Positions 49,100-63,736 of a stretch of DNA of 64,000 nt are shown here, piece after piece. The stretch is taken from assembly GCF_003846185.1 (NCBI RefSeq), contig NZ_ML123034.1, forward strand, positions 62,001 to 126,000, given 5' to 3'. Under the pieces are notes generated by a model. The model saw only the letters and a program-made list of their open reading frames with translations. It did no database searches and was not told the DNA's origin. This DNA is from Streptomyces sp. ADI96-02. GTDB lineage: Bacteria; Actinomycetota; Actinomycetes; Streptomycetales; Streptomycetaceae. Within the stretch, counting starts at the first letter, position 1. The number at the start of each line of letters is the position of its first letter. The position numbers were made by a program, and so were the translations under genes.

Positions 49100-50461
49100 T
49101 CAGGAGACCGAGCAGGCGGAACCGTTGAGCTTCACGTCAACGGGCTTGCCCGAGGCGCCGTCGGCGACGAATCCGACGGTCAGCGCCTGGCCGGCGGCGA
49201 TCTGGGTGTTGTGGGCGACGGGGGTGGCGGTGACCGTGCGTCCGCTCTGGGCGGCGGTCATGTTCCAGCTCTGGGTGATCTTCTGGTCGCCCGGGAACGT
49301 CCACGACAGGTTCCAGCCGCTCAGCGCCTTGCCGTTGTTCTCGACGGCGATCTCGGCGGTGTGGCCGCCCGACCACGACGAGCCCGGCTTGTACACGGCC
49401 TTGCAGGACTGGGTGCCCGGGTCGGGCTTGGGCGGCTCGGGAGGCGTGCCCGTGCCGGGGGAGTTCGGGCTGTTGCGGACGAGCTCGTCGGCGAGCCCCG
49501 GCTCGAAGGTGCCGGCTCCGCCGAAGCCCCGGCAACCTCCGTCGGACTCGCCGGGCGCCTTCACCCAGAGGAAGGCGTGGACGCGCGGGTCGCCGGTGTT
49601 ACGGGTCGAGCGGGCGCCGAGGCCGCGCCCGGGCGGGTTGCACCAGGTCGCCTGCGGGTCGTTGGAGGCGTAGGGGCCGTTGCCGTTGCGGCTGGTGTCG
49701 ACGATCTGGCCGAGGGAGGGCACGCCGATCGCGGCGAGCAGTTCCTTGCCGTAGGCGACCTCGTCGGCCGTCGTGCGGAAGTTGGAGACGTTGGTGACGA
49801 TGCCGTCGCCCTGGGCGACACCGGCGGCCTTGAGGTTCTGGGCCTCGACCTTCCAGCCGCTGTGTCCGGCGTCGTAGTACACCTTCGCCGCGGGGGCGAT
49901 CCTCTTGATGGTCTCGCCGGCCTTCTTGATCGCCGCCAGTCGCTGCGCGAGGCTCAGCCCGGTGGACTTGCACGCGTTGTCTTCCGTCGCCGCCTCCTTG
50001 TCCTCGCCCTGGGCGATCGCGTCCGGTTCCAGCAGGACGACGACCTCACGGCTGCCGAGCCCCTGGGCGAACTCCTGGACCCACGCCTCGTAGGCGGCGT
50101 AGTGGGGAGCGCCGCCCGCGGAGTGACTGCCGCAGTCGCGGTTGGGGATCATGTACGCGACCACGGCGGCTGTCGTGCCCGCCTTGGCCGCGCCGTCGGT
50201 GACGCCCTTCACCTGGGACCTGATGGTCTTCGGGTCGTACGCGGCGAACCAGGTGGCCCGGGGCACGTCCGCGATGTTCGCCTTGATGCCGGCGGCACGG
50301 GGGTCCGCCGTGTTGGAGTTGACCCAGTCGCTCGCCTGGGAGCCGGGCGCCAGGTAGAAGCCGGTCTCCGCGCCGGAGGCGGAGCCGGGGAGAGCGGTGA
50401 GCAGGACGGCCGGAAGGGCCAGCGGGGCGATCCACCGGCTTCTTCGTACGAGTGCGCGCAT
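49100..50461 (-). CDS. Secreted GH6 cellulase with C-terminal CBM2
   Basis: A 453-residue exported cellulase. The signal peptide ends near residue 30 ('SASG'). The GH6 barrel spans about 35-330, with Asp109 in 'NRDC' and the proton donor Asp147 in 'LEPDAIA'. 'KAPGESDG' marks the C-terminal catalytic loop. A Pro/Thr linker and a family 2 cellulose-binding module (about 355-453, with a Cys pair and exposed Trp) follow. It cuts beta-1,4-glucan. Start ATG 50461 has aagga upstream, and a CebR box precedes it, so cello-oligosaccharides should induce it. Confidence 0.93.
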   Translation of the reverse strand: MRALVRRSRWIAPLALPAVLLTALPGSASGAETGFYLAPGSQASDWVNSNTADPRAAGIKANIADVPRATWFAAYDPKTIRSQVKGVTDGAAKAGTTAAVVAYMIPNRDCGSHSAGGAPHYAAYEAWVQEFAQGLGSREVVVLLEPDAIAQGEDKEAATEDNACKSTGLSLAQRLAAIKKAGETIKRIAPAAKVYYDAGHSGWKVEAQNLKAAGVAQGDGIVTNVSNFRTTADEVAYGKELLAAIGVPSLGQIVDTSRNGNGPYASNDPQATWCNPPGRGLGARSTRNTGDPRVHAFLWVKAPGESDGGCRGFGGAGTFEPGLADELVRNSPNSPGTGTPPEPPKPDPGTQSCKAVYKPGSSWSGGHTAEIAVENNGKALSGWNLSWTFPGDQKITQSWNMTAAQSGRTVTATPVAHNTQIAAGQALTVGFVADGASGKPVDVKLNGSACSVS

Positions 50462-50476
50462 GGATGATCCTTTATG

Positions 50477-50490
50477 TGGGAGCGCTCCCA
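50477..50490. promoter_or_regulatory. CebR operator (TGGGAGCGCTCCCA)
   Basis: A perfect 14-bp palindrome identical to the consensus of the Streptomyces cellulose-utilisation repressor CebR. It is placed 16 bases before the GH6 start codon, where bound CebR would block transcription until cellobiose or cellotriose releases it. Confidence 0.9.
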
Positions 50491-50993
50491 TCTGTGCGGG
50501 TGCGCAGAGGGGGAACGGAGCCTTCAGTGGGGGAGATCAGCCGCGTGAGCGGCGACATGACGTGGTGCGGGAACGCGGGGACGGCATCCGCGGTCACTGC
50601 TCGGGCGGAAGCCGCTAGGTGCTGGCGACGAACATAGCCACAAGGACGGCCGCTCCGGGAGCCGCCGTGATCAATCGCTCATGCGGAGCGCGCGGTGGCG
50701 CGCGACCCGCCCTTCCCGGTTCCCTCGTGCCGTGGACTCCTGGAAGGGGCGAGGGAAGAGGTGAGGAAGGCGGCCGGGCCGGGAGTCGGGAACGGGCCGA
50801 CCGGCACCGGGAACTGACGGTTCGTCGCCCTGGAGCCCACGACGTCCCCTCGCCGGTCCCGGAGCGGGCGAAGTCCCCGTGCCGCCCCGGAACCGCGGCG
50901 TTTCCGTCGCCGGTCCCCGGAGCCGGCGGGGCATCCGCCACGCCCCGGAACCTGCGGCCTCCCCGTGTCAGGCGTCGGCGCCCTCCGTCTGCT
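50491..50993. other. Intergenic region between SWIM and cellulase genes
   Basis: About 500 bases of Gly/Arg-like low-complexity composition without a credible gene. It holds the cellulase promoter and the end of the MoxR island. A 24-base imperfect copy of the SWIM gene's last codons lies at 50968-50991, and a CCCCGGAACC-type direct repeat occurs at about 50895 and 50941. Short GC dyads are present, but none is convincing as a terminator. Confidence 0.45.
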
Positions 50994-51017
50994 TCAGGCG
51001 TCGGCTCCGTCCGTCTG
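50968..51017 (-). repeat. Tandem duplication across the SWIM gene stop codon
   Basis: Bases 50994-51017 (last seven codons plus TGA) are repeated at 50968-50991 with 22 of 24 bases identical. The copies are offset by 26 bases, so the second copy is out of frame and lies past the stop. Confidence 0.75.
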
Positions 51018-52922
51018 CCAGGTGGCCCTGACCAGCGCACGTTCCGTGCTGCTCAGGTACACGGCCGTGGCCAGCCAGGCGCGGGCGTAGCGGTCCGGAT
51101 CCGCCTCGCCGACACGGCCGAACACGTCCCGGTCACGTCGGTCCGCCTCCGCCGTGAGGCCGGTCGCCAGGTCGGCCGCCGTACGGAATCCGCCACGTCG
51201 CAGGGCTGCCCCGACGCCGTGCCGGTCACCGTCGCGCGCGGGCTCGGCGACGGCCCTGCGGCCTCCGGAGACCGCGACCTCGACCAGGCGTCGCAGCCGC
51301 CACAGCGGCGCCTCGGCGAGCGGATCGGTGCGCACGTCCTCGGGGCCCGAAACCGGCGGGAGTTCGTCCGGGGGCGGGAAGTGTGCGCCTTGGAGGCGGT
51401 CGTAGCCCAGGTCGGCACGGCCCTGCCACTCGGGCGGGAGGCGCAGGGTGGCCTCACCGTCCGGTGCCGGGCCGACGGCGAGGGGCACCAGAGTGGCCGC
51501 CCGGTCGGGGTCGAGCCGGCCGATCACGCGCAGCCGCAGGCCCGGACGTCGGGCGAGCTGACGGAAGTTGGCCGCATGGGCGAGGTCGGGATGCGTGCTC
51601 GCCGGGGCCAGCCGCATCAGCGGACCCTCCGTGTCGCCGCGTCCGGGGATCGACGCGCGAGCGAGCACGTGCTCCCCCGACACTCCGACGAGGACCAGGT
51701 CGCAGCCGACCGGTCGGCGGGCCCTCCGGTCCGCCTCCTGCGGATCCCGCTCCGGGGCGCCGCTCAGCCGCTCCTCGACGGCTTCGGCCGGCGGCCGGGC
51801 GAACAGGGCTGCCAGCGGGCCGTCCGTCCAGGCCAGCCCCGGTGCCGGGGTGGCTCGTACGCCCCGGCCGGAACCGAGCCGGCCGTCCGGGGAGAGCGTC
51901 GCCCCGGAGACGAGCATGCCGCCCCGGGAGAGCTGGGCGTGGCTCAGGCTGCCCGCGCCGAGGGCGACGGTCGCCGTGGCGGCTCCGCGCGCGCGGGCCA
52001 CACCTCCGGGCTTCACGTCGGCGACGGAGAACCAGCGGCCGTCGTCCGCGACGACGTGCGTCACGACACCGCCGTATCCGGTCGCGGTCACCACCGGCTC
52101 CCGGCACACCCCGTGCACCCGCAGGCTGCCGCCCGGCCGGTAGGTCCGCCGGGCTGTGCCGACGAGAGCCGGGTCCGGGTCACCGGCGGACAGGAGGCAG
52201 GTGGTGAGCAGGAGTTCGCGCACGTCGGCCACCAGGTCGGCGAGCCGGTGGCCGCCGTCGCGGGTCCGCGCGCCGCGCAGGCCGCGCACGACCCGCAGGG
52301 CGGTGGCTTCGGCCCGGTGCAGGCCGGCCAGTCGCGCCGAGTGCGCGGCGCGCAGCAGTTCCGCCTGCGGCACCGCACCCGCGGCGGGCACTCCGGCGGC
52401 GAGCACGGCCGCGGTGGCCGACCAGAGCGCCGCTGCCGCGGCCACCTGGGCGGGTAGGGGAACGGCGGGCGTCTCCGCCTGATCACTGGAGGCCGCCGAA
52501 GGTCCTTCCGCCGCGGGGACGCCCGGCGGGCCGGAGCGCGCGCCGGTGCCGGACGGCGGACCGTCGCCGGTGCCGGACGGCGGACCGTCGCCGGTGCGGT
52601 GGAGGTCCGGCTCCTCGGCCTTGGGCTCGGCGTCGGCCACCGGGCAGGCGCCCAGCACGGCTGTGCGGTGCAGGCAGCGCGGGGCCAGCAGGCAGCCGCA
52701 CACGGCCTGCCCGGCCTCGGTGACCGTGCCCGAGGGACCGGGTGCGAGGGTCACCTCGGCGTCCTCGCCGCACCGGACGCGCAGGACGGGGCCGTCGGCC
52801 GTGACCGGCAGGGCCGCGTGCGAGGCGATCGCGGCGTCCAGCTTCTTGCGCAGCCTGGTGGTCAGGCTCTCGACGGCCCCGGCGACCACGTCGGGTGCCA
52901 CCGGGGGCAGTTCGGCGCTCAT
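50994..52922 (-). CDS. SWIM zinc-finger protein of the MoxR-VWA island
   Basis: A 642-residue cytosolic protein. A SWIM-type zinc site is at Cys75-x-Cys77...Cys83-x-His85. A low-complexity linker with a 'DGPPSGTG' repeat (about 105-145) follows, then a long Ala/Arg-rich part without known enzyme motifs. SWIM fingers bind DNA or protein. The ATG at 52922 overlaps the stop of the DUF5682-VWA gene (ATGA), so it is the last gene of the island. Genes of this type regularly follow MoxR and VWA genes in actinomycetes, and the SWIM protein probably recognises the target or the nucleic acid (inference). Confidence 0.87.
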   Translation of the reverse strand: MSAELPPVAPDVVAGAVESLTTRLRKKLDAAIASHAALPVTADGPVLRVRCGEDAEVTLAPGPSGTVTEAGQAVCGCLLAPRCLHRTAVLGACPVADAEPKAEEPDLHRTGDGPPSGTGDGPPSGTGARSGPPGVPAAEGPSAASSDQAETPAVPLPAQVAAAAALWSATAAVLAAGVPAAGAVPQAELLRAAHSARLAGLHRAEATALRVVRGLRGARTRDGGHRLADLVADVRELLLTTCLLSAGDPDPALVGTARRTYRPGGSLRVHGVCREPVVTATGYGGVVTHVVADDGRWFSVADVKPGGVARARGAATATVALGAGSLSHAQLSRGGMLVSGATLSPDGRLGSGRGVRATPAPGLAWTDGPLAALFARPPAEAVEERLSGAPERDPQEADRRARRPVGCDLVLVGVSGEHVLARASIPGRGDTEGPLMRLAPASTHPDLAHAANFRQLARRPGLRLRVIGRLDPDRAATLVPLAVGPAPDGEATLRLPPEWQGRADLGYDRLQGAHFPPPDELPPVSGPEDVRTDPLAEAPLWRLRRLVEVAVSGGRRAVAEPARDGDRHGVGAALRRGGFRTAADLATGLTAEADRRDRDVFGRVGEADPDRYARAWLATAVYLSSTERALVRATWQTDGADA

Positions 52923-55900
52923 CGGTTCTCTCCACGGAGGCGGTCGCCCACCCAGCGGGCGAGGGCGAGGGGGCTGAGGGCGGCCACGGGCATTCCGGCC
53001 GATACGAGCTGCTGGGCGATCGGCACCGAGTAGCGGGGCGTTCCGGTGTCGTCCAGTGCGGCGCAGCCCATCAGATGCACTCCCGAACTCACCAGGGCCC
53101 GCACCTCGCCGAGCATTCCGCCGAGCGGGCAGCCCTCCTCGAAGTCGCTCACGACCACCACGATCGTCCGGCTGGGCACGGTCACCAGGGAGCGGGCGTG
53201 CGCCAGGCCGGCCGCGATGTGGGTGCCTCCGCCGACCCGTACCTCCAGAAGCAGCGACAGCGGGTCGTCCACCCGGTCGGAGAGATCGATCACGTCGGTC
53301 GAGAAGGCCAGGAAGTGGGTGGACAGGGTGGGCACGCCGCCGAGGACGGCGGCGGTCAGCGCGGACCAGACGACGGACGCCTCCATCGATCCGGACACGT
53401 CGACCACGAGGATGAGCCGCCAGTCCGCCTCCTTGCGCGACCGGGTGCTGAACACCGGCCGTTCGGGGACGACCACGGTCCGGCCGTCGTCCAGGCGCCG
53501 GGTGTGCTCCAGATTGGCGCGCAGGGTGCGGGGCAGGTCGAGCCGGCCGCCGGGGCGGCGGGTGGGGCGCGGCGTGTCCAGGCCCGTCAGGGCCGGGCGC
53601 AGGCGGGTGGCGAGCTCGCGGGCCAGCTCGTCGACCAGTCGGCGTACCAGAGGGCGCAGCTTGGCCAGTTGGCGCTCGGGCATCCCTCCGGCGAGGGAGA
53701 GGACGGACGTCAGCAACTCCACGGAGGGCCGCACGGCAGCGGGGTCCAGCTCCGCCAGGACGTCGGTGCGTCCCTGGTCGGCGGCGCGGGACAGCACCTC
53801 CTCGCGGACCTCGGCCCCGAACAGCGCTTCCAGTTCCTCCGACCACTCGCGGGCCGTGGGGAAGGACGCCCCCCGCCCGCCGCCCTGTCCCCGGCCGTCG
53901 TCGAGCTCTGAGGAGCCCTCGCCGCGTCCGGAGCCGTACAACTCGTCCAGGGCCTGGGCGTAGCGGCATGCTCCGGCGGAGAGTCGGTCGCTCTCCCGCC
54001 CCAGGAGGAGACGCCAGCGGTCGGCGGGATCGAGGCGGACTGCGGTGGGCCGCGGCGTGGTCGGATTGCCGGGAACCGCTGCGGCTCCGGCCGGTGCCCC
54101 GTCCGTCGACCGTCGCGCGCCGTCCTGTTCGCCGGGAGCGGAAGCCTTCGGTACGGAAGCTGTCGAACGCCTTCCGGGGCCGGGCGCGCCGGGCCCGCGT
54201 CCGGCGAGGTCTTCGCCGGGCGCGGCGGTCCCCGTACCGGCGTCCAACTCCCCTGCCCGCGCCCCTGCGGTCGCTATCGCCAGGGCGTCCGCCCCGCCCG
54301 GCAGTAGGGCCTCCACGGCCCGCAGCCCCGCCAGGTCCGCCGACGCCCACAGGGCGAGCAGGGCGGGCGAGGCGGTGAGCGAGAGGTCGGGCCGGTCGCC
54401 GAGACGTTCGGTCACGGTCGTCAGCAGGCGGTCGCGGCCGGCCGGGCTGAGGGTGTCGAAGCCGCCGCGCAGCGCGGGCAGCCGGTCGAGGAATCCGCGG
54501 TCGGTGAGCGTGTCGATCCGGTCGAGCAGGGGGTCGAGCGCGGCGGGCGCGGACTGCAGCAGCGGGGCCGCGCCGCTGAGCAGACCGGTGAGCCGCCGCG
54601 CCAGGTCGTGGCGGCGTTCGGGGCCGGTGGCGGTGTCGATCCAGCCCGCTGCCCGTGCTCCCAGGGTGTCGGGGTGGTCCAGGTCCAGGAGGACCCGGGC
54701 GGCCAGGGCGGCTCCCTGGACGAGCGGCGATCCGGTGCGGGCGAGCGCGCCGAGGGCGTCCTCCATGCGCAGTCCGAGCCGGTGTTCACCGGCCCGCGTG
54801 GACAGCTCGACCAGCGCGACGGCGTCCTCCGGCCGGTCGCTGCCCGCCAGACCGGGCAGGGCGCGGACCGCCGCGTCGAGCAGGGCGACGGCCAGCTCCG
54901 CGGCCTGTCGCCTGCTGTCCGGCTCGGCACCGGGCAGATGGCCGCGGCCCAGTGCCTCCAGCAGGTCCAGTGCCTCCAGGAGTTCGGGGAGGGTTGCGGC
55001 TGCCGGGAGCACGGCGGAGGCGTCGGCCAGCCGCTCGGTCACCAGCGCGGTGAGGTCGCAGCGGGCGGCGGCGCGCAGCCCGGAGAGGACGAGTTCACAG
55101 GTGGGTCCTCCGTCCGCCGACTCCCGGCGGAACGTCTCGCGCAGCGTGCCCTCGGCTGCCAGCGCGGCGGTGACTCCGCGTATCCCGGCCAGGTCGAGCC
55201 GGACGGGGACGGCCGGCGTCCACGACAATCGCCACCGGGTGGTGAGGGCCGTCCCGTCACCTGTACCCGCCACCGCGACGGACTCGCCGTAACCCGCGCC
55301 GCACACGGCGAGCCGTTGGAGCAGGATCTCGCGCCGGCCGTCCAGTTCGGAGCGGAGGGGGTCGAGGCGGACCTCCCGCGCCGCCGGGTCGTCGGGGCCG
55401 GGCAGGCGCAGCGCGGCGAGTTCGGCCTCCGCGGACGGCCCGAGTCCCGACCGCGGTGTGCCCGGCGCGGTGCGCCCGCGAGCGGTGCCGACGAACACCA
55501 CTTCGAGCGAACGGGCGAGGGCCCGGCCCCGGCCGAGCGGTTCGCCCTGGCCCATCACCGTCGTCAGCGCCTCCAGGACTTCGCCGCGTCCGGGGGCCGC
55601 GAGTCCGCGCAGCCGCGCCAGGTCGCACGCCATCCGCAGCGTCTCCCCCGCCTCGCCCGTACCGGCGGTGTGCCCTGCGGCACGCAGCTCCCGGCAGACG
55701 TCGGTGATCGCCCGGGCCGCGGCGGCGTGCAGGAGCTCCGGGTCGCCACCGGACGCGAACACGGCCTGCTGCCAGCGTGGATCGCGGATGCCGGCCGGGT
55801 AGCCGGAGCGCGAGTCCAGCAGATCGAAGGCGTACGGGACGAGCGAGGTGACGACGGGCGGGCGGTCGCCGGTCAGCGCATCCCGCTCGGCCGCCGGAAC

Positions 55901-56695
55901 GGCGTCCGCCGGGCGCGGGCGCCCGCCCGCGCCGGGCTCGTCCCCGCCGGGCCGCTCCCCGCCGGGCTCGTCCCCGCCGGCGGCCAGCGCCGGGGCGTGG
56001 AAGGCGCCCACGACGGCGGCCACCCTGCGCCCGCCCGCTCCCGCACGCGCGATGGTCTGCCGCATGTGCCGCTCGCGGGCCAGGTCCACGGCGGGCACGC
56101 CGCCGGCCGACTCCGCGTCGCGGCGCAGTGCCCATCCCACGCCGAGAGCGGCCCGGCGAACCGCTTCGGGAGTGCAGCCGGGCGCCAGCACTTCCACGCA
56201 CCGGTCCCAGAGGTCGTCCCCCGCACGGCCGGTGCCGGCGGCGGAGAGCGCGCCGGCGAACGTGGTGGAGGGCGCCCGCGGCGCGTCCGCGACAACGGTG
56301 CGGGTGTCCCCGGCCGGGGTGGGCCCGTCGGTGCTCCACGCCGGATCGGACATCGGCAGATCGCAGCACAGGACCTCCACGCCGCGCTCCCGGGCCCAGC
56401 GCACTGCCGCCAGCTCGGGCGAGAAGTCGGCGAACGGGTAGAAGCCCAGGCCCCCACCCGCCCGCGTTCCCGCCAGGGCGACGGGCGCGAGGGTGTCCGG
56501 GTGGGCCAGGTGCGGCAGCCAGGACTGGAAGTCGGCGGGCAGTTCCACGCACACGGCCCGGGCGCCGGAGGCGTCGAGCAGCGCGGGGACGGCTGCCGCC
56601 AGGGCGGGGCTGTGGTGCCGTACGCCCAGCAGGTACGGCTCCGTGGACTCGGCGAGCGAGGTGAGAACCGCGCGGGGTTCCTGAACGGCCGTCAC
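52919..56695 (-). CDS. DUF5682 - VWA (CoxE-like) fusion protein
   Basis: A 1258-residue protein in one uninterrupted frame. Residues about 1-815 are DUF5682, with 'YLLGVRHHSPALAAAVPALL' and 'AVCVELP', reminiscent of ChaN/TIKI-type hydrolase folds. A Pro/Ala/Gly/Ser linker covers about 815-885. Residues 886-1258 are a CoxE-like VWA part with a complete MIDAS: Asp1099-x-Ser-x-Ser in 'VVDVSGSM', Thr in 'GGGTHIAAGLAH' and Asp in 'VVSDFEEG'. Elsewhere the two parts are often separate genes. VWA proteins couple to MoxR ATPases. The start GTG 56695 overlaps the moxR stop (GTGA). Confidence 0.87.
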   Translation of the reverse strand: MTAVQEPRAVLTSLAESTEPYLLGVRHHSPALAAAVPALLDASGARAVCVELPADFQSWLPHLAHPDTLAPVALAGTRAGGGLGFYPFADFSPELAAVRWARERGVEVLCCDLPMSDPAWSTDGPTPAGDTRTVVADAPRAPSTTFAGALSAAGTGRAGDDLWDRCVEVLAPGCTPEAVRRAALGVGWALRRDAESAGGVPAVDLARERHMRQTIARAGAGGRRVAAVVGAFHAPALAAGGDEPGGERPGGDEPGAGGRPRPADAVPAAERDALTGDRPPVVTSLVPYAFDLLDSRSGYPAGIRDPRWQQAVFASGGDPELLHAAAARAITDVCRELRAAGHTAGTGEAGETLRMACDLARLRGLAAPGRGEVLEALTTVMGQGEPLGRGRALARSLEVVFVGTARGRTAPGTPRSGLGPSAEAELAALRLPGPDDPAAREVRLDPLRSELDGRREILLQRLAVCGAGYGESVAVAGTGDGTALTTRWRLSWTPAVPVRLDLAGIRGVTAALAAEGTLRETFRRESADGGPTCELVLSGLRAAARCDLTALVTERLADASAVLPAAATLPELLEALDLLEALGRGHLPGAEPDSRRQAAELAVALLDAAVRALPGLAGSDRPEDAVALVELSTRAGEHRLGLRMEDALGALARTGSPLVQGAALAARVLLDLDHPDTLGARAAGWIDTATGPERRHDLARRLTGLLSGAAPLLQSAPAALDPLLDRIDTLTDRGFLDRLPALRGGFDTLSPAGRDRLLTTVTERLGDRPDLSLTASPALLALWASADLAGLRAVEALLPGGADALAIATAGARAGELDAGTGTAAPGEDLAGRGPGAPGPGRRSTASVPKASAPGEQDGARRSTDGAPAGAAAVPGNPTTPRPTAVRLDPADRWRLLLGRESDRLSAGACRYAQALDELYGSGRGEGSSELDDGRGQGGGRGASFPTAREWSEELEALFGAEVREEVLSRAADQGRTDVLAELDPAAVRPSVELLTSVLSLAGGMPERQLAKLRPLVRRLVDELARELATRLRPALTGLDTPRPTRRPGGRLDLPRTLRANLEHTRRLDDGRTVVVPERPVFSTRSRKEADWRLILVVDVSGSMEASVVWSALTAAVLGGVPTLSTHFLAFSTDVIDLSDRVDDPLSLLLEVRVGGGTHIAAGLAHARSLVTVPSRTIVVVVSDFEEGCPLGGMLGEVRALVSSGVHLMGCAALDDTGTPRYSVPIAQQLVSAGMPVAALSPLALARWVGDRLRGENR

Positions 56696-57852
56696 CGGAG
56701 GTTCTCCCGCAGGTCCCAGAGGCGGCGCCAGAGGGCGGAGCCGTCCTCGGCGCGGCGGCGCACCGGGCCGTCCCAGTAGCCGAGGAGACGGGCGTGGTCG
56801 GCCGGGTCGTCCTTGCGGACGACACCGAGCAGATGGCCGGGCACGAGATCCAGGACGTCCCCGCCGGGAAGGTAGGCCGCGGCCACCCCGATGGAGGCGA
56901 CGACCTGCACGGCCTCGGCGGTCGACATCACCGTGCCCGGGCGCTCCACGTCCCAGCCCTCCGCCGAGCGGCCCTGGCGCAGGTCGCGGAAGACGGTGAC
57001 CAGGACGTCGAGCACCGCCTCGTCGACGCCGAAGGCCGCGCCGGTCCGCTCGACGGCGGCGGTGGCCTGCCGTCGGACCAGGGTGGTCTCGGCGTCGGCG
57101 TCGGCGATGGGGTGCACCGTCTCGAAGTTGAAGCGGCGCTTGAGGGCGGCCGACATCTCCGAGACCCCCCGGTCGCGCAGGTTGGCGGTGGCGACGACGG
57201 TGAAGCCGGGGGCGGCGGCCACCTGGGCGTGCGGTGTGCCGGACAGCTCGGGCACGCTGACACGGCGGTCGGACAGGATCGAGACCAGGGCGTCCTGCAC
57301 CTCGGGAAGGCAGCGGGTGATCTCCTCGATCCGTGCGACCCGCCCCGAGCGCATGGCGCCGAGCACCGGCGAGTCGACCAGCGCCTGCGGGGTCGGTCCC
57401 TGGGCGAGCAGGAGCGCGTAGTTCCAGCCGTAGCGGAAGGCGTCCTCGGTGGTGCCGGCGGTGCCCTGGACCGTGAGCGCGCTGGTGCCGCAGACGGCGG
57501 CCGAGAGCAGTTCGGAGAGCATCGACTTGGCGGTGCCGGGCTCTCCGACGAGAAGGAGCCCGCGCTCGCCCGCGAGGGTGACCACACACCGTTCCACCAG
57601 GGCGCGTTCGCCGACGAACTTGGGGGCGATCACCAGCCGGTCCGGCAGGTTCTCCTGGGGCCGGAGCGGCTTCAGCGTCTCGCCGCCGCTGCCGCAGACG
57701 AAGGTGACGACGGAGCGCGGCGTGAGACGCCAGCCCGGCGGCCGGGGCCCGTCGTCGTGGGCGGCGAGAAAGGCGAGTTCGGTGCCGTGGCGTTCCTCGG
57801 CGGTGAGTGTCTGCCGGGCCGGGGAGTGGGTGGCCGTGTCGGTCGGGGTCAT
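56692..57852 (-). CDS. MoxR-family AAA+ ATPase
   Basis: A 386-residue AAA+ ATPase. Walker A is 'GEPGTAKS' (103-110), Walker B is 'RIEEI', sensor 1 is 'VVATANLRDRG', and 'ALKRRFNF' carries the arginine finger. MoxR proteins form rings that remodel or activate a partner bearing a VWA domain, here encoded next with a GTGA overlap. The ATG at 57852 begins after 'aaggatttcc'. It is separated from the upstream 1629-residue gene by 131 bases with a hairpin, so it may be expressed at a different level. Confidence 0.92.
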   Translation of the reverse strand: MTPTDTATHSPARQTLTAEERHGTELAFLAAHDDGPRPPGWRLTPRSVVTFVCGSGGETLKPLRPQENLPDRLVIAPKFVGERALVERCVVTLAGERGLLLVGEPGTAKSMLSELLSAAVCGTSALTVQGTAGTTEDAFRYGWNYALLLAQGPTPQALVDSPVLGAMRSGRVARIEEITRCLPEVQDALVSILSDRRVSVPELSGTPHAQVAAAPGFTVVATANLRDRGVSEMSAALKRRFNFETVHPIADADAETTLVRRQATAAVERTGAAFGVDEAVLDVLVTVFRDLRQGRSAEGWDVERPGTVMSTAEAVQVVASIGVAAAYLPGGDVLDLVPGHLLGVVRKDDPADHARLLGYWDGPVRRRAEDGSALWRRLWDLRENLR

Positions 57853-57926
57853 GGAAATCCTTGCCAGATGGGCCGATGGGGCAGTGGGGCCATGGGTCTG
57901 TGAGATGTGGGATATGAGATGTGGTC

Positions 57927-57969
57927 GGGCGGGGCCGGGCGCCGATCGTGGTCGGCGCCCGGCCCGCCC
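57927..57969 (-). terminator. Strong hairpin between the 1629-residue gene and moxR
   Basis: Arms at 57927-57945 and 57952-57969 pair over 18 bases with one bulged G and a six-base loop. It lies 15 bases after the upstream stop in the direction of transcription. It may terminate or attenuate, setting the ratio of the large proteins to the MoxR module. Two copies of gagatgtgg (57903-57911, 57916-57924) lie between it and moxR. Confidence 0.6.
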
Positions 57970-57983
57970 TCGGCAGCCGCCCG

Positions 57984-60900
57984 TCAGCGGCGGCGGCCTC
58001 TGCGTACCGTCAGCTCCTCGAAGCGGGGTGCGTCGCCGTCGACGGCCCGCTGCCAGGCCCTGCGGTAGAGCTCGGCGGCCGGTTCGGTCGGCACGACCGC
58101 GCCGAACGGCGCGTGGTCGTCGGTCAGCAGGTCGCCGAAGAGCGGCAGCTTCCACCGCTCCAGCGGAACGCCCGGCGTCCTGAGCTCGCACCATCCGCCG
58201 GGAAGGAAGAGGGAGCGTCCGGCCCTGGTCCGACCTGCCTCGACGACCAGGTCGGTCGCGGTCAGTTCGGCCCGGGCCGCCTTGACCCGGCCCGGCTTCC
58301 AGCCCGTCCAGCGGGCCGTCAGACGGTCGGTCGGGTCGGGCATGGCGAGCAGCATCAGATAGAGCGTTGCCGCGTCCTCACCCAGGCCGTGTTCCGTGGC
58401 GGCCTCGGAGACCAGATCGGGCACGGAACGGGACGGGTCCTGCGGCCACCAGACGCCGTCCTTGTCCCGTTCACCGGCGAGCGGGTCGCCGGGGTCCGCG
58501 AGGAGGGCGGCGAAGCGCGGGTCGCGGGCGATCCGCAACGCCAGCTCCGCCGCGAACGGCTGCTGGTCCTCCAGGCGCAGCGCCGGCAGGTAGGGGTCGT
58601 GCCCGGCCGCGTCCAGGAGGGCTACGCGGACCCCGGGCGCGGGCTGGTCGTCGTGCGTGGCCAGGATGACGGCGCCGTAGCGCTCGAAGCCCGCGCCGAC
58701 TTCGGTCGGGGCGCCCGCGGCCTTGCGGAAGGCGGAGAGCCTGATGTAGCGGCCGAGGTCGAGCACCAGCCCGGGGTGGGCCAGCCGGTCGCGGACGGCG
58801 TCGAGCGCCGCGGGCAGGGCGGCCCGGACCGGGTCGCCCGCCGGTACCCGGTGGGCGAGCCATCCGAGGAGACCGATCGCGCCGGCCAGCGTATCCGCCG
58901 TGAACCCGACCTGGTCCTCCCCGACCGGGCGGACCCGGTCGCCCTTGACCGCCCACTCCAGGTCGCGGGTGAGCCGTGGTTCACCGGCCGGGTGGAGAAG
59001 CGCCGGCAGCGCCTCGCGTACCTCCCACGAGGAGGACTTGACGGCTCGTACCGCCTCGGCGAGCAGTTCCTCGGGGACGGCCGTACGCCTGCCCACCCGG
59101 CGGTTCCACACCTCCGCGGCGGCGGTCGCGTCCGGCCCCCGCGTCCACAGCGTCACGGGGTCGGCGGGCAGCAGAGCGGCCACCACCTCGGTGCGGACGC
59201 CGCTGTCCAGTGCGCGCAGTTCGTCCTTGGCGACGGCGGCGCGGACGGCCTTCACCCCGATGGCGCCGCGGGCCTCCGTCGACAGGAACGTCCTCTCGTA
59301 CGTGTCGATCCCCGGGAGACCGGCCACGTTCAGTCTGGCCATCGTCTCGGTGACGCCGGTGAGCCGGGCGAACTCCTCGGCCGCCTCGGGGAACCAGGGC
59401 GCGGGCCCCCGTGTGCTCAGCTCGGCCAGGAAGTCGCCCATGCCTCCCTTCCGCCCGTCCTCGCCCAGGGGGGCCGAATCGCGGAGGATGTAGGGCTCGG
59501 GAACCTCGAACCGCCCGGCGGGGTCGTGGAAGAGGCCGGTGAAGAGGCAGCCGCCGACGCCGGGCGCGTCGTGCCGCACGACGGCGACGAAGGCGCCGCC
59601 GCCCAGGGGCAGCAGTCCCGTCCAGTCGCCGTCCCGCCAGTCGCCCGGCAGGTGGCGGGCGTCCAGGTGGAGCCGGACCCTGCGCCACCGGTCCCCGGCG
59701 TCGAACAGCCCGAGGGCTTCGAACTCGGTGAGCAGTGTGTGCAGCACTTCGCGGTGCTCGGCGGAGGTGGTGACGGCCGCCGCCCGGTGGACCAGTGCGG
59801 TGCGGCAGCCCAGCAGGGCGTCGAGCGTCGGCTGTCCGGACGGCAGTGCGGGGCGGCCGATGTGGAGGGTGCCGGGGCCGTCCGGGGCCGGGGCCTCGTC
59901 GCGTCCGACGGCCCGGGAGATCGCCCGCAGCGACCGGAAGACGGTGTCGGCGTCGGACCGGTGGCCCCACCAGTGGCCGCCTCCCTGGCCGAGGCCGTTC
60001 ATGGCGTCCAGCAGTTCGGAGTCGGGCGGTCCGGCCGGGCCCTCCTCCGCCGCGCCGCCGTCGAGCGCCAGGGTCAGGCGGTCGGCCGCCACGTCCAGCA
60101 CGGCCTGCTGGCCCGCGGCGTGGCGCACGACTCCGGCGATGCCCGCCACCAGCGACACGTCGGTGACGGGGAGGAGCGAGCGGATCGCGTCGGGCAGCGC
60201 CTCCGTGCCGTCCTGGGCGGCCGACCGCAGCAGGGCCGCGGCGGTGTCCCGGTCGATCCGGCGCAGCGCCTCGGAGCCTTCCGGGTCGCGAGAGGTCAGG
60301 AACTGCCAGTACTGCACGGGCGGCAGCAGGAGCGAGCCCTCGCCGAACACGCCGGGAGTCCGGTCCGTCCGGGCCACCGAGGTGACGACGCCTTCCGCGT
60401 CGTACAGGTCGAGCTGCCAGCCGTTGCGGACCACCGCGCGGGGCCGCTCGTCGCCCGGGAACCGTACGATCGCGGACGGGATGCCCACGCCCGCGGGCAG
60501 CGTGACGGTGTTGCCCGCGAGGTCCTGGGAGCGCGAGGAGCCGTCGGGCAGGCTCACCACGCGCAGGCCGATCAGGCCGTCCACGGGTGCGCAGACCGGT
60601 CCGGCGCCGGCCGGAGCGGGTCGGAGCCAGCCTCCGTGGAAGGTGCTGCCGTCCGGGCAGTCGCGCAGCGCGTCGGCGAAGAAGGAGGGCGGGCCCATCC
60701 GGCCGCGCTCGCCTGATGCCGGGTCGTACTCGTACCAGCCGTAGCCCGTGCTGTCCTCGCTCTCCGTGTTCCAGACCCAGTACGAGCGGCCGTCGGTGAC
60801 CAGCGGACGCTCGTCGGGCAGCGTGGTGTCCCCGGTGTGCAGCACGCCGCCGCCGGTGGCCCGTCCGCCGCCGGGCAGCGGAAGCGTGATCACCATGGCG

Positions 60901-62873
60901 CCCTGGTACCAGTCCATCTGCGTGCCCCGGGTGCCGCGGGGGCCCTCCAGGCCCTGCGGGCGGTCGGGGTGCCGGTGCCAGTAGCCCCGGCGCTCACCGT
61001 TGCGGCTGTTCCAGTAGACGAGGAGTTCACCGTCCACGTGGTGGAAGCCCGGATCGCCCCACGCCTCGTCGGTGGGAATCCGCAGGTCGTGGGTGAGGAC
61101 GGCCCCTTCGGCTCCGATGACGCGGGCCTGGGTTCCGCCGGCGACGATGAGGTGGGGCCAGGCGTCGGCGACGATCAGGTCCTGGACGTCGGACTTGGGG
61201 ACGAGCGTCGCGGCGCCGTCCTCCCAGGCCGGCCAGCCGAGTTCGTCGAGGAGTCCGGCCCGCAGGGTCCGGGCCAGGACGGGTGCCAGGTCCGTTCCGA
61301 CGGCTGCCCTCACCTCCTCCTCGGCCAGGGCCAGCGCCTCGGCGGGGAGCCACTTGAGCCGGGTCAGGGCGTCCGGCAGCTGAGGCAGGCCCACGGCGGT
61401 GAACCGGCGTACGACCGTGCTCACCCAGCCGGCCAGCATCGTGCGTCCGCCGGGCGACGCCGCGAGCAGCCGGATGGCCCGCCGGCCGGACTCGTCGTCC
61501 CCGAACCGGTCGGCGCCGTGGTGGAAGGCGGGGAGGAAGCGGGCGTCGGCGGCGAGGGCGAGCAGGTCGCGCTGCCCGTCGCCCTGCGCCCACTGCGAGA
61601 GGAGCAGACCCTGGTCACGGACGGGGGCCGCCACCGGGATGTCCAGGGACAGCAGGAGATCGATCAGGTCGACGTCGTGCACGACCTTCAGCTCCTCGCC
61701 GGACGAGGCGAGTTCGGCGCGCAGCCGATCGGCAGCGCGCTCCACCAGGGGATACAGCTCGGGCATGCGGGTGGAGCCGCTCCACGACCGCGCCTGCTCG
61801 CGGAAGGCCAGGAAGCGGTCCAGCCAGCCCTTCGTACCGTCCTTCGGCTGCTCCTCGGCGGGCAGCGAGCCGTCGCTCAGCGCGCCCGTGGCGCCCGAGC
61901 GCTCCAGGACGTCCAGCCACAGCCCTGGCATCTCCTCCTCGTGGCAGGACGGAATCAGGTCCAGCAGCTGCCCCCGCACCCGCCGTTCGCGCCCGGCCAG
62001 GCCGACGAGCGCCGCGCGATGGCCCTTCCACCATCCCGCCGCGGCACGCAGCGTGGCCGGGAGTCCCAACAGCTCCGCGAGGTAGTCCTGTTCGGCACGG
62101 TCGGCGTCCTGGCCCGCGGCGCGCGCCAGCTTGCGCAGGTCGTTCGCCATCTGCGCGGACGGCGGCAGGCCGCCCGCCGTCCGACGCAGGCACAGCCGGG
62201 TGAAGCGCAGCAGCGCCTCCCGGGCCGGTACCCGTCCGGCCAGCTCTTTGGCGTAGGCCGAGAGGACCTTCACCGGCAGAGCGCCGGCCAGGGCGAACTC
62301 CAGGAAGACGGCGTCCAGCCGTTCCTCGTCCACCGCGAGACCGTGTTCCGCCTCCGACTTGCGGGCGCGGGTGAAGAGCTGCGCCGCGTACGTCGCGTTC
62401 TCCTCCGCGATGAAGGTCCGTCCGGCCTGCTCGTAGAACGTCGGCAGGAAGTGCGGCACCGAGGCGGCGAGCCGCGCTCCGATCTCGAGACAGGCGTCCA
62501 TGGCCGCCTTGGGGCGGGACTTCGTCTGCCGGGCGACCCGTTCCAGGTCGGGCACGACGCCGAGGGCGTGGTGCCCGTCGGCGGGGTGGTGCACGAGCAC
62601 CCATTCGGGGAAGCCGAGCGACTGGCGCGGGCCGAGGCCCACGACCGCCGGCTCCGCGTCCGGCTCCAGGCCGAGGAATCCGGCGGCCAGATCCTCCGCG
62701 GCGCCCAGCTCCCCGGCGACCAGCCGCACGACGACCCGGTCGTCCAGGCCCGGATGGCGGTAGGCCCGCGCGGTCAGCGGAACCGCCGACTCCCCCGCGC
62801 CCTCCGCGTCCGGCGGCAATACTCCGCCCGCGCTCAGCAGCTCCTCGTACGACACCTGCGTCCCCCCGTTCAT
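57984..62873 (-). CDS. Very large protein (1629 residues) of the DUF4132/MoxR island
   Basis: A 1629-residue protein without signal peptide or transmembrane helices. The first 560 residues are helical (Ala/Leu/Arg-rich, repeat-like). The middle (about 600-890) is beta-rich, with repeating Trp/Gly strands such as 'LLVYWNSRNGERRGYWHRH' and 'WYEYDPASGERGRMG', propeller-like in appearance. The C-terminal 600 residues are again helical. It has no nucleotide-binding motif. Such proteins accompany DUF4132 and MoxR/VWA genes; in databases some are called DNA-binding, without clear proof. ATG 62873 overlaps the DUF4132 stop (ATGA). It is a candidate sensor or scaffold for the island (inference). Confidence 0.85.
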   Translation of the reverse strand: MNGGTQVSYEELLSAGGVLPPDAEGAGESAVPLTARAYRHPGLDDRVVVRLVAGELGAAEDLAAGFLGLEPDAEPAVVGLGPRQSLGFPEWVLVHHPADGHHALGVVPDLERVARQTKSRPKAAMDACLEIGARLAASVPHFLPTFYEQAGRTFIAEENATYAAQLFTRARKSEAEHGLAVDEERLDAVFLEFALAGALPVKVLSAYAKELAGRVPAREALLRFTRLCLRRTAGGLPPSAQMANDLRKLARAAGQDADRAEQDYLAELLGLPATLRAAAGWWKGHRAALVGLAGRERRVRGQLLDLIPSCHEEEMPGLWLDVLERSGATGALSDGSLPAEEQPKDGTKGWLDRFLAFREQARSWSGSTRMPELYPLVERAADRLRAELASSGEELKVVHDVDLIDLLLSLDIPVAAPVRDQGLLLSQWAQGDGQRDLLALAADARFLPAFHHGADRFGDDESGRRAIRLLAASPGGRTMLAGWVSTVVRRFTAVGLPQLPDALTRLKWLPAEALALAEEEVRAAVGTDLAPVLARTLRAGLLDELGWPAWEDGAATLVPKSDVQDLIVADAWPHLIVAGGTQARVIGAEGAVLTHDLRIPTDEAWGDPGFHHVDGELLVYWNSRNGERRGYWHRHPDRPQGLEGPRGTRGTQMDWYQGAMVITLPLPGGGRATGGGVLHTGDTTLPDERPLVTDGRSYWVWNTESEDSTGYGWYEYDPASGERGRMGPPSFFADALRDCPDGSTFHGGWLRPAPAGAGPVCAPVDGLIGLRVVSLPDGSSRSQDLAGNTVTLPAGVGIPSAIVRFPGDERPRAVVRNGWQLDLYDAEGVVTSVARTDRTPGVFGEGSLLLPPVQYWQFLTSRDPEGSEALRRIDRDTAAALLRSAAQDGTEALPDAIRSLLPVTDVSLVAGIAGVVRHAAGQQAVLDVAADRLTLALDGGAAEEGPAGPPDSELLDAMNGLGQGGGHWWGHRSDADTVFRSLRAISRAVGRDEAPAPDGPGTLHIGRPALPSGQPTLDALLGCRTALVHRAAAVTTSAEHREVLHTLLTEFEALGLFDAGDRWRRVRLHLDARHLPGDWRDGDWTGLLPLGGGAFVAVVRHDAPGVGGCLFTGLFHDPAGRFEVPEPYILRDSAPLGEDGRKGGMGDFLAELSTRGPAPWFPEAAEEFARLTGVTETMARLNVAGLPGIDTYERTFLSTEARGAIGVKAVRAAVAKDELRALDSGVRTEVVAALLPADPVTLWTRGPDATAAAEVWNRRVGRRTAVPEELLAEAVRAVKSSSWEVREALPALLHPAGEPRLTRDLEWAVKGDRVRPVGEDQVGFTADTLAGAIGLLGWLAHRVPAGDPVRAALPAALDAVRDRLAHPGLVLDLGRYIRLSAFRKAAGAPTEVGAGFERYGAVILATHDDQPAPGVRVALLDAAGHDPYLPALRLEDQQPFAAELALRIARDPRFAALLADPGDPLAGERDKDGVWWPQDPSRSVPDLVSEAATEHGLGEDAATLYLMLLAMPDPTDRLTARWTGWKPGRVKAARAELTATDLVVEAGRTRAGRSLFLPGGWCELRTPGVPLERWKLPLFGDLLTDDHAPFGAVVPTEPAAELYRRAWQRAVDGDAPRFEELTVRRGRRR

Positions 62874-63736
62874 GCTTTCCCGCCCTCCTCGATCACGCGT
62901 CCCGCGAACAGCGCCGCGGCCATCCGCATCCCCTCCGACCAGGCGACGGGCCCGACGTCGCGCAGAGCCAGCGCGCGCCCGTCCTGGTCACGCCAGGACA
63001 GAGCGCCGGTCTCCACCTCGTCCTCCCAGTACGGTTCGCCGATCCACACGGAGGCCTCGACGGTCCGCCCGCCGTCGCGCACCCGCGAGGTGGCGTAGCC
63101 GCCCGAGACCTTGTGCCCGAGCGAACCGGCCCGCGCGGCCAGGGCGAACCGGGACCGGAAGGCTCCGCCGGCGAACTCCTTCACCTCCGTGGCCTTCGGG
63201 TCGAGGCCGGACGGCCGATGCCATGTGGCGCGGTGGATCTGCTCGACCCCCTGCGTGATGCCCAGCTCCGCCGCGAACTCCCGCACGTCGTCGAGGTCGG
63301 GCAGCAGGACCGGGTGCGGCAGCGTGACCGTGCGGGCCGAGAAGCGGACCGTCTCGCCGTCGAGGTTGACCACGCGCAGCTCGCCGGACCCGGTCGCGCC
63401 CCGCAGGAAACCCACCTCGTCCGGGTCGTCGCCCACCACCGCCAGATCGCGCAGGGCCGACTGCCACGCCTCGTCCGGCCAGACGCGGGCCAACAGGCCC
63501 GTGGGCACCGGCAGTGACGACACCATCCAGCCGTCTATCTGCGCTGTGCACTGCGCCGCGTGCCGGTCCAGCCATTCGGCGAACCGCCGCAGGCGGTCGA
63601 CCTCCGGATGGTCCTTGAGAGCGCGCGGCAGCGACTTCAGCTGTCGCCCCGCCGCTCGGCCCGAGGTGGCGCGTACGGCCACCCGCCCTTGCACAAGGGC
63701 GACTTCATACCCGTCACCCGCCGAAAGCCAACCCAC
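62870..63736 (-). CDS. DUF4132-domain protein
   Basis: A 288-residue protein that is almost wholly DUF4132: 'LRRFAEWLDRHAAQ', 'PVPTGLLARVWPDEAWQSALRDLAVVG', 'EVGFLRGATGSGELRVVNLDGE' and 'LPHPVLLPDLDDVREFAAELGITQGVEQIHR'. In many bacteria this domain is the C-terminal part of MolR-like proteins with WGR domains. Here it stands alone as the first gene of the island, starting at GTG 63736 after a purine-rich tract. Its stop overlaps the next start. The function of the domain is unknown; association with MoxR/VWA modules is its most constant feature. Confidence 0.85.
   Translation of the reverse strand: MGWLSAGDGYEVALVQGRVAVRATSGRAAGRQLKSLPRALKDHPEVDRLRRFAEWLDRHAAQCTAQIDGWMVSSLPVPTGLLARVWPDEAWQSALRDLAVVGDDPDEVGFLRGATGSGELRVVNLDGETVRFSARTVTLPHPVLLPDLDDVREFAAELGITQGVEQIHRATWHRPSGLDPKATEVKEFAGGAFRSRFALAARAGSLGHKVSGGYATSRVRDGGRTVEASVWIGEPYWEDEVETGALSWRDQDGRALALRDVGPVAWSEGMRMAAALFAGRVIEEGGKA

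Follow-up and report, generated by a model that had tools for sequence, protein, structure and literature searches.

A predicted DNA-damage promoter precedes a Streptomyces variant of the Escherichia coli yeh gene set

Introduction

Which process is served by an operon that joins a MoxR AAA+ ATPase and a VWA protein to a SWIM zinc-finger protein, a DUF4132 domain and a giant protein of 1629 amino acids? The question is raised by five leftward genes in a stretch of 64,000 nt from Streptomyces sp. ADI96-02 (GCF_003846185.1, NZ_ML123034.1, positions 62,001–126,000), the whole of which is called the window here. A preliminary description of this DNA had placed the five genes at 63736–50994, with three 4-base overlaps among four junctions, and had read them as a possible conflict or stress system. 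We confirmed the five open reading frames (ORFs), their coordinates, their overlaps and their protein families, and the accompanying interpretation was partly supported. What had been missed is the yeh operon identity of the gene set and a RecA-NDp DNA-damage promoter in front of it. The reading that we favour, and consider fairly probable, is that the operon encodes a DNA-damage-inducible MoxR–VWA machine of the YehL-YehM-YehP-YehQ class, which would remodel, and probably hydrolytically process, proteins after genotoxic stress.

A variant of the yeh operon

Judged by its sequence, the gene set is not a new combination: its families and their order are those of yehI–yehL–yehM–yehP–yehQ in E. 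coli K-12, where the genes stand as yehI (DUF4132), yehK, yehL (MoxR), yehM (DUF5682), yehP (VWA) and yehQ (SWIM). All five genes of the window lie on the minus strand. The first (62870..63736) encodes a stand-alone DUF4132 protein of 288 amino acids (Pfam PF13569, E 2e-26), which corresponds to the C-terminal part of YehI (columns 898–1168, hhalign E 7e-4). The second (57984..62873) encodes the giant, in which a beta-propeller is predicted at about residues 540–860 amid helical regions; it gave no match to Pfam, to NCBIfam or to PDB sequences, and hhalign revealed no relation to YehI, to DUF5691 or to itself. The third gene (56692..57852, ATG start) encodes a MoxR ATPase of 386 amino acids (AAA_5, E 7e-36) from the YehL subfamily, a named branch of the MoxR family (PMC3893208); it is 44% identical to YehL over 387 amino acids (BLASTP E 5e-90) and has the same Walker A sequence, GEPGTAKS. 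In the 1258-amino-acid product of the fourth gene (52919..56695, GTG start), a YehM-like DUF5682 region (Pfam E 1e-205; BLASTP to YehM E 3e-25), predicted to consist of a ChaN/EreA-like N-domain and an alpha-solenoid, is fused to a YehP-like VWA domain of the CoxE type (Pfam VWA_CoxE E 3e-64; BLASTP to YehP E 4e-60). The last gene (50994..52922, ATG start) encodes a YehQ-like SWIM zinc-finger protein of 642 amino acids with the motif CGCLLAPRCLH at residues 75–85. The Pfam SWIM model stayed below threshold on this protein, whose SWIM identity rests on the motif, on profile alignment to the YehQ family (hhalign E 1.3e-5) and on the operon position, a YehQ-like SWIM gene coming last.

The operon is therefore, by gene content, a variant of the YehL-YehM-YehP-YehQ class and not a yehI-Q operon. 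Unlike in E. coli, VWA is fused to DUF5682, the full-length YehI partner of about 1200 amino acids is cut down to its C-terminal DUF4132 domain, an unrelated propeller giant has been added, yehK is missing and the promoter is of an actinobacterial DNA-damage type. The preliminary description had held that no described pathway explains all five genes. This holds in so far as literature searches with the five gene names, DUF4132 and DUF5682 found no functional study; it does not hold for the gene set itself, which was already known from E. coli as yehI-yehL-yehM-yehP-yehQ. Of 5426 complete E. coli genomes, 3976 have at least 80% of the operon in one place and 5342 have some part of it. It is dispensable in the genome-reduced strain DGF-298, which lacks it entirely (PMC10652928).

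The protein motifs are well kept among relatives. The metal-ion-dependent adhesion site (MIDAS) of the VWA domain, described beforehand as complete, was indeed found with all its elements (DxSGS, GGGTxI and SDF), as in 62 of 67 relatives, and the SWIM motif CxCx(n)CxH is present in 63 of 67. The Walker A, Walker B-like, sensor-1 and Arg-finger motifs of MoxR are intact in 70–71 of 71. The junctions, which in the window are three 4-base overlaps and one gap of 131 nt between the giant and MoxR, have median gaps of -4, +141, -4 and -4 in 62 related loci.

A RecA-NDp promoter in front of the operon

New here is the finding, well supported at the sequence level, that the operon begins at a perfect match to the RecA-NDp, LexA-independent DNA-damage promoter. 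Alignment of the upstream DNA of close relatives gave a conserved block, TTGTCAGTG-N8-TAGCGT. In the window the predicted PafBC-type promoter, TTGTCAGTGGCCGCCGCTAGCGT, occupies 63845–63823 on the minus strand and starts 109 bp 5' of the first start codon; it matches the published consensus tTGTCRgtg-N8-TAnnnT (PMC5656591) perfectly and is the sole match in the window. PafBC acts at this kind of promoter (PMC6789036, PMC8223512), after binding single-stranded DNA (PMC11804915). A scan of 79 sister loci found a strict match within 260 bp upstream of the operon in 54 and a loose match in 75, compared with 1 strict and 8 loose matches elsewhere in 3.56 Mb of strand, counts that are not independent since the loci are related. 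At least loose matches occurred in 10 of 11 genera. Upstream of 80 loci, we found one match to a LexA box, one to a SigR box and none to a Zur box, and a scan for sigma-70 promoters found none.

Throughout the genome of the window there are 24 strict RecA-NDp matches, compared with none for the reversed pattern. Among the genes behind them are those for RecA, UvrB, MgsA/RarA, a UvrD-helicase, uracil-DNA glycosylase (UDG), HhH-GPD and HHH_RecD2 proteins and a DEAD helicase, and because such repair genes sit behind its sites, the motif marks a repair regulon in this genome. At 17 of the 24 sites an ATG or GTG start codon lies 29–32 nt from the start of the motif, a spacing as expected of leaderless transcripts; at many of the 24, the start codon lies 6–9 nt past the -10 element. 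A tandem pair of WYL ORFs resembling PafBC (C1:1014919-1016076) is, by its pairing, a candidate for PafB and PafC. We also observed, at C1:6846270, a RecA-NDp site immediately followed by a gene for a WGR protein that has a propeller-like region, recalling the WGR/MolR-like damage genes of Deinococcus, and, at C1:5733294 and 5733798, two small ORFs of unknown function in a row (58 and 74 amino acids), each directly behind its own site.

Four cluster types share the promoter

According to family searches and locus comparison, MoxR–DUF5682–VWA occurs in four gene arrangements among Streptomyces and its relatives. Type A, which is near-universal in Streptomyces and lies in the chromosome interior, has SWIM–DUF5691 divergent from MoxR–DUF5682–VWA; type B is the five-gene form of the window; type C is a true yehI–yehL–yehM–yehP–yehQ operon, whose MoxR in other actinobacteria is 63–65% identical to that of E. 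coli, as against 44% for the window operon; and type D is VWA–MoxR–DUF5682. The second DUF5682 cluster of the window's own genome, at C1:4.13 Mb, is of type A. Such clusters have the same four core families and the same promoter motif as the window operon, from which they differ in that a HEAT-like DUF5691 partner replaces DUF4132 and the giant, and in being divergent, near-universal and interior. Among plasmids, the order SWIM–DUF5691–MoxR–DUF5682–VWA occurs in Deinococcus and Rhizobium, and clusters of Iodobacter and Allorhizobium have DUF4132 forms. These arrangements show that the core families are constant and the large partner varies, which agrees with the MoxR–VWA core with a variable third part that the preliminary description had recognised.

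The RecA-NDp site recurs at the paralogous clusters. It is present at the type A cluster of the window's genome; in 20 further genomes type A had a strict match in 17, with the start codon exactly 30 nt from the motif start each time, and a loose match in all 20, and six Streptomyces loci add to these. All three Streptomyces type C loci examined had the site, and most of the type D loci examined had a strict match. Seven more loci, each taken around a match to the giant, had no strict site; in six of them the giant is a distant orphan lacking the core genes, indicating that the promoter follows the core and not the giant.

Outside the actinobacteria, the first gene of the cluster on a Deinococcus taeanensis plasmid has, right after a −10-like element, a site that matches the DdrO motif TATGYYHTTARCRKA at 13 of 15 positions; the 21.7-kb locus as a whole would hold about 0.14 such sites by chance. 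Depletion of DdrO in D. radiodurans strongly raises the expression of DUF4132- and WGR-containing genes (PMC8533742).

Two further relatives were seen on the way. In Iodobacter fluviatilis, a yeh-type operon that includes two DUF4132 genes lies on the 77-kb mobilizable plasmid pl1, next to a type I restriction system; the plasmid also carries an integrase. A YehL-like MoxR (43% identity) lies near the end of a 14-kb record labelled "Bacteriophage sp." (MT835988.1, 12858-13913), possibly a bacterial contig.

Distribution and mobility of the five-gene form

Distribution was analysed in Actinomycetota and plasmids, and flanking genes were called with a simple GC-frame script. The giant is encoded in at least 477 genomes of the GTDB species set. 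All five genes are kept in order in 65 of the 80 best loci, in several actinobacterial genera, most of the others being broken at contig ends, and in all 19 loci from the window's relatives. Given this conservation across genera amid unrelated flanks, chance is excluded as the origin of the order. Indeed, among 189 flanking genes from 32 loci no family occurred in more than three loci.

Within Streptomyces, the giant is present in 27 of 61 genomes. The median distance of type B from the chromosome end is 12% of the chromosome length, as against 38% for type A, and type B is also found on linear Streptomyces plasmids. The tree of the giant places other families within Streptomyces and forces at least four changes, which suggests exchange of type B between families and falls short of proof. 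Confinement of the gene order to vertical inheritance in Streptomyces, together with a shown housekeeping role such as metal insertion, had been named beforehand as the outcome that would refute the preliminary reading; the spread over several genera and plasmids and the nested tree show that the order is not so confined. On this evidence, type B looks like a unit that is self-contained and mobile.

Streptomyces ardesiacus and S. viridiviolaceus have a type B operon that lacks MoxR together with a second, complete one elsewhere, which could supply the MoxR. In Actinocorallia populi (NZ_PVZV01000005.1), a single MoxR-DUF5682 core is preceded by an array of four tandem giants and two DUF4132 genes, and this array contains a second RecA-NDp site. 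Both situations fit giants that act as exchangeable specificity subunits sharing one core. Orphan giants, about 29% identical where long stretches align and lacking MoxR, DUF5682 and the damage promoter, were observed in six Streptomyces genomes, and some of them seem frameshifted.

Predicted structures

The AlphaFold2 model of the DUF5682 region (mean predicted local distance difference test, pLDDT, 74) has an alpha/beta N-domain followed by an alpha-solenoid. As the preliminary description had supposed, the N-domain is predicted to resemble the ChaN/TIKI folds, with a VIA Z of 8.2 to ChaN (2g5g) over 159 residues at a root-mean-square deviation of 4.9; a subunit of Tetrahymena complex IV scored 9.7–9.8. 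A sequence search of the PDB gave no match, and a Foldseek search with the model gave none with E <0.001, the alpha-solenoid filling the list, so that other relatives of the fold may be hidden. Residues H27, H28, E51, D112, R207, E208 and H233 are kept in nearly all sequences of types A–D and YehM. The elements G24-x-x-H27, E51 and G230-x-x-H233 lie at strand ends; YehM and types A, B and C conserve all of them, whereas type D is without the first glycine. A pattern of the kind GxxH…E…GxxH is known in TIKI/TraB and erythromycin-esterase-like enzymes. Together, the predicted fold and these residues make it plausible that DUF5682 is a hydrolase. Unlike in the ChaN, erythromycin esterase and TIKI-TraB group, to which there is no sequence-level match, the N-domain is followed by an alpha-solenoid and VWA and is encoded in a MoxR operon.

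For the giant, residues 450–1629 were modelled with a pLDDT of 86.9. The best Foldseek match to this model (E 7e-4) was a kelch propeller, and nearly all of the top matches were propellers.

Other features of the window

The gap between the giant and MoxR contains a GC-rich hairpin (57927..57969, minus strand) with a minimum free energy of -59.2 kcal/mol (z -3.0). A perfect stem of at least 9 bp was found in 32 of 51 sister gaps, compared with 0 of 51 shuffled ones. Next to the end of the operon lies a gene for a GH6 cellulase with CBM2 (49100-50491).

Discussion

In the mechanism that we propose, damage would expose single-stranded DNA, PafBC would activate transcription from the RecA-NDp promoter (63845-63823), and the five proteins would be made. 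The MoxR ring would hydrolyse ATP and drive the VWA domain, whose MIDAS may grip a peptide or a partner protein. Owing to the fusion of VWA with DUF5682, the force would be passed on to the alpha-solenoid and the ChaN/EreA/TIKI-like domain, where G-x-x-H27H28, E51, D112, R207E208 and G-x-x-H233 may form a site of metal or catalytic type. Recognition and presentation of the substrate would fall to SWIM, the DUF4132 domain and the giant with its propeller. Most likely, the machine would remodel, and probably process by hydrolysis, proteins that are troublesome after genotoxic stress and that may be bound to DNA. The gene set, its order, the integrity of the motifs, the yeh homology and the promoter with its presence at four paralogous cluster types are supported by the comparisons above. 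From these we infer complex formation, hydrolase activity, a substrate, the role of each recognition subunit and induction by damage, and what we say of the substrate and the chemistry of the machine are guesses.

Several observations weigh against this proposal. The similarity to ChaN (Z 8.2) is modest, the sister loci whose promoters were counted are related, and distant orphan giants have no damage promoter. Upstream of the clusters in E. coli, Rhizobium, Allorhizobium and Iodobacter we recognised no damage operator, and simple patterns found neither alpha-proteobacterial LexA boxes in Rhizobium and Allorhizobium nor an E. coli LexA box near yehI/yehL. Furthermore, an initial search in S. 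venezuelae did not find the PafBC motif of M. smegmatis to be conserved (PMC9380542). Our 24 sites conflict with that negative result, and, as far as motif matches can tell, they indicate a PafBC-type regulon in the genome of the window.

The main rival to a damage-response machine is a system for conflict with phages or mobile DNA, in which the giant or SWIM would sense the intruder, MoxR-VWA would trigger DUF5682 as the effector, and DNA damage caused by infection would prime the promoter. Such a role is possible and would explain the patchy occurrence of the giant, its position towards chromosome ends amid unrelated flanks, the clusters on linear and conjugative plasmids, the tandem giants of Actinocorallia and the restriction system beside the Iodobacter cluster. 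There is also a precedent in the MoxR-vWA ternary conflict systems (Kaur et al. 2020, PMC7159879), which likewise have a MoxR and vWA core with a variable third part, and whose FtsH and beta-propeller types share the GxxxTAKS variant of the P-loop seen in the window. The window operon differs from them in that none of their described third components was matched, and in that its vWA is C-terminal with no propeller after it. Pfam gave no match to VMAP, iSTAND, FtsH or vWA-beta-propeller, and bpMoxR scored 19.9 bits against a cut-off of 27, although the giant has a predicted propeller; neither Pfam nor PADLOC found linked variable effector domains or effector-associated domains (EADs) in the five proteins. 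The main text of PMC7159879 does not mention SWIM, DUF4132, DUF5682 or YehL. Specific support for defence was looked for and not found: none of the five proteins matched a PADLOC 2.0 model at E <= 0.01, and among 113 flanking genes no PADLOC family occurred more than twice and there was no enrichment of defence genes. A scan of IMG/VR with the DUF5682–VWA query confirmed no relative. In Streptomyces, type A occupies the chromosome interior and is near-universal, and the E. coli operon is found whole or in part in nearly all genomes of that species. We therefore regard a conflict system as rather unlikely, and an anti-phage role in particular was not supported.

Other functions agree with fewer of the observations. 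MoxR-VWA might insert a metal or a cofactor into one enzyme, as NorQ-NorD and CoxD-CoxE do, with DUF5682 and SWIM handling the metal. The VWA domain does fall in Pfam VWA_CoxE and NorQD offers a precedent (PMC13036017, PMC9976466), but the operon has no conserved metalloenzyme gene as a neighbour and a DNA-damage promoter would be unexpected, so that we consider a maturation chaperone doubtful. That the induced DUF5682 hydrolase acts on its own cell, causing killing or dormancy, would suit the inducible-type promoter, the hydrolase-like conserved residues and the logic of conflict systems (PMC7159879); it appears improbable given the near-universal type A and the lack of a toxin-like domain or a toxin-antitoxin layout. 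Finally, a role in regulating molybdate metabolism derives from the historical DUF4132/WGR–MolR annotation of YehI-like proteins (quoted in PMC8533742). As moeA and moeB were not differentially expressed under DdrO depletion (PMC8533742) and no molybdenum genes are among the commonest flanking families, we give it hardly any credence.

Returning to the damage-inducible machine, a broader and more tentative proposal is that the YehL-DUF5682-VWA-SWIM core might be a general bacterial DNA-damage-response machine, combining an AAA+ chaperone with a new metallo-hydrolase. It may have been recruited separately under PafBC in actinobacteria and under DdrO in Deinococcus, and equipped with exchangeable recognition subunits, namely YehI, DUF5691, or DUF4132 with a propeller giant that has been amplified in tandem in Actinocorallia.

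The yeh operon and its relatives are widespread, and the damage promoter shared by four cluster types, together with the operator-like site in Deinococcus, provides a testable hypothesis for an orphan gene set. Our results suggest that MoxR–VWA machines may act beyond metal insertion and respiratory assembly, and that Streptomyces may have a PafBC-type damage regulon, a question left open by a recent study (PMC9380542).

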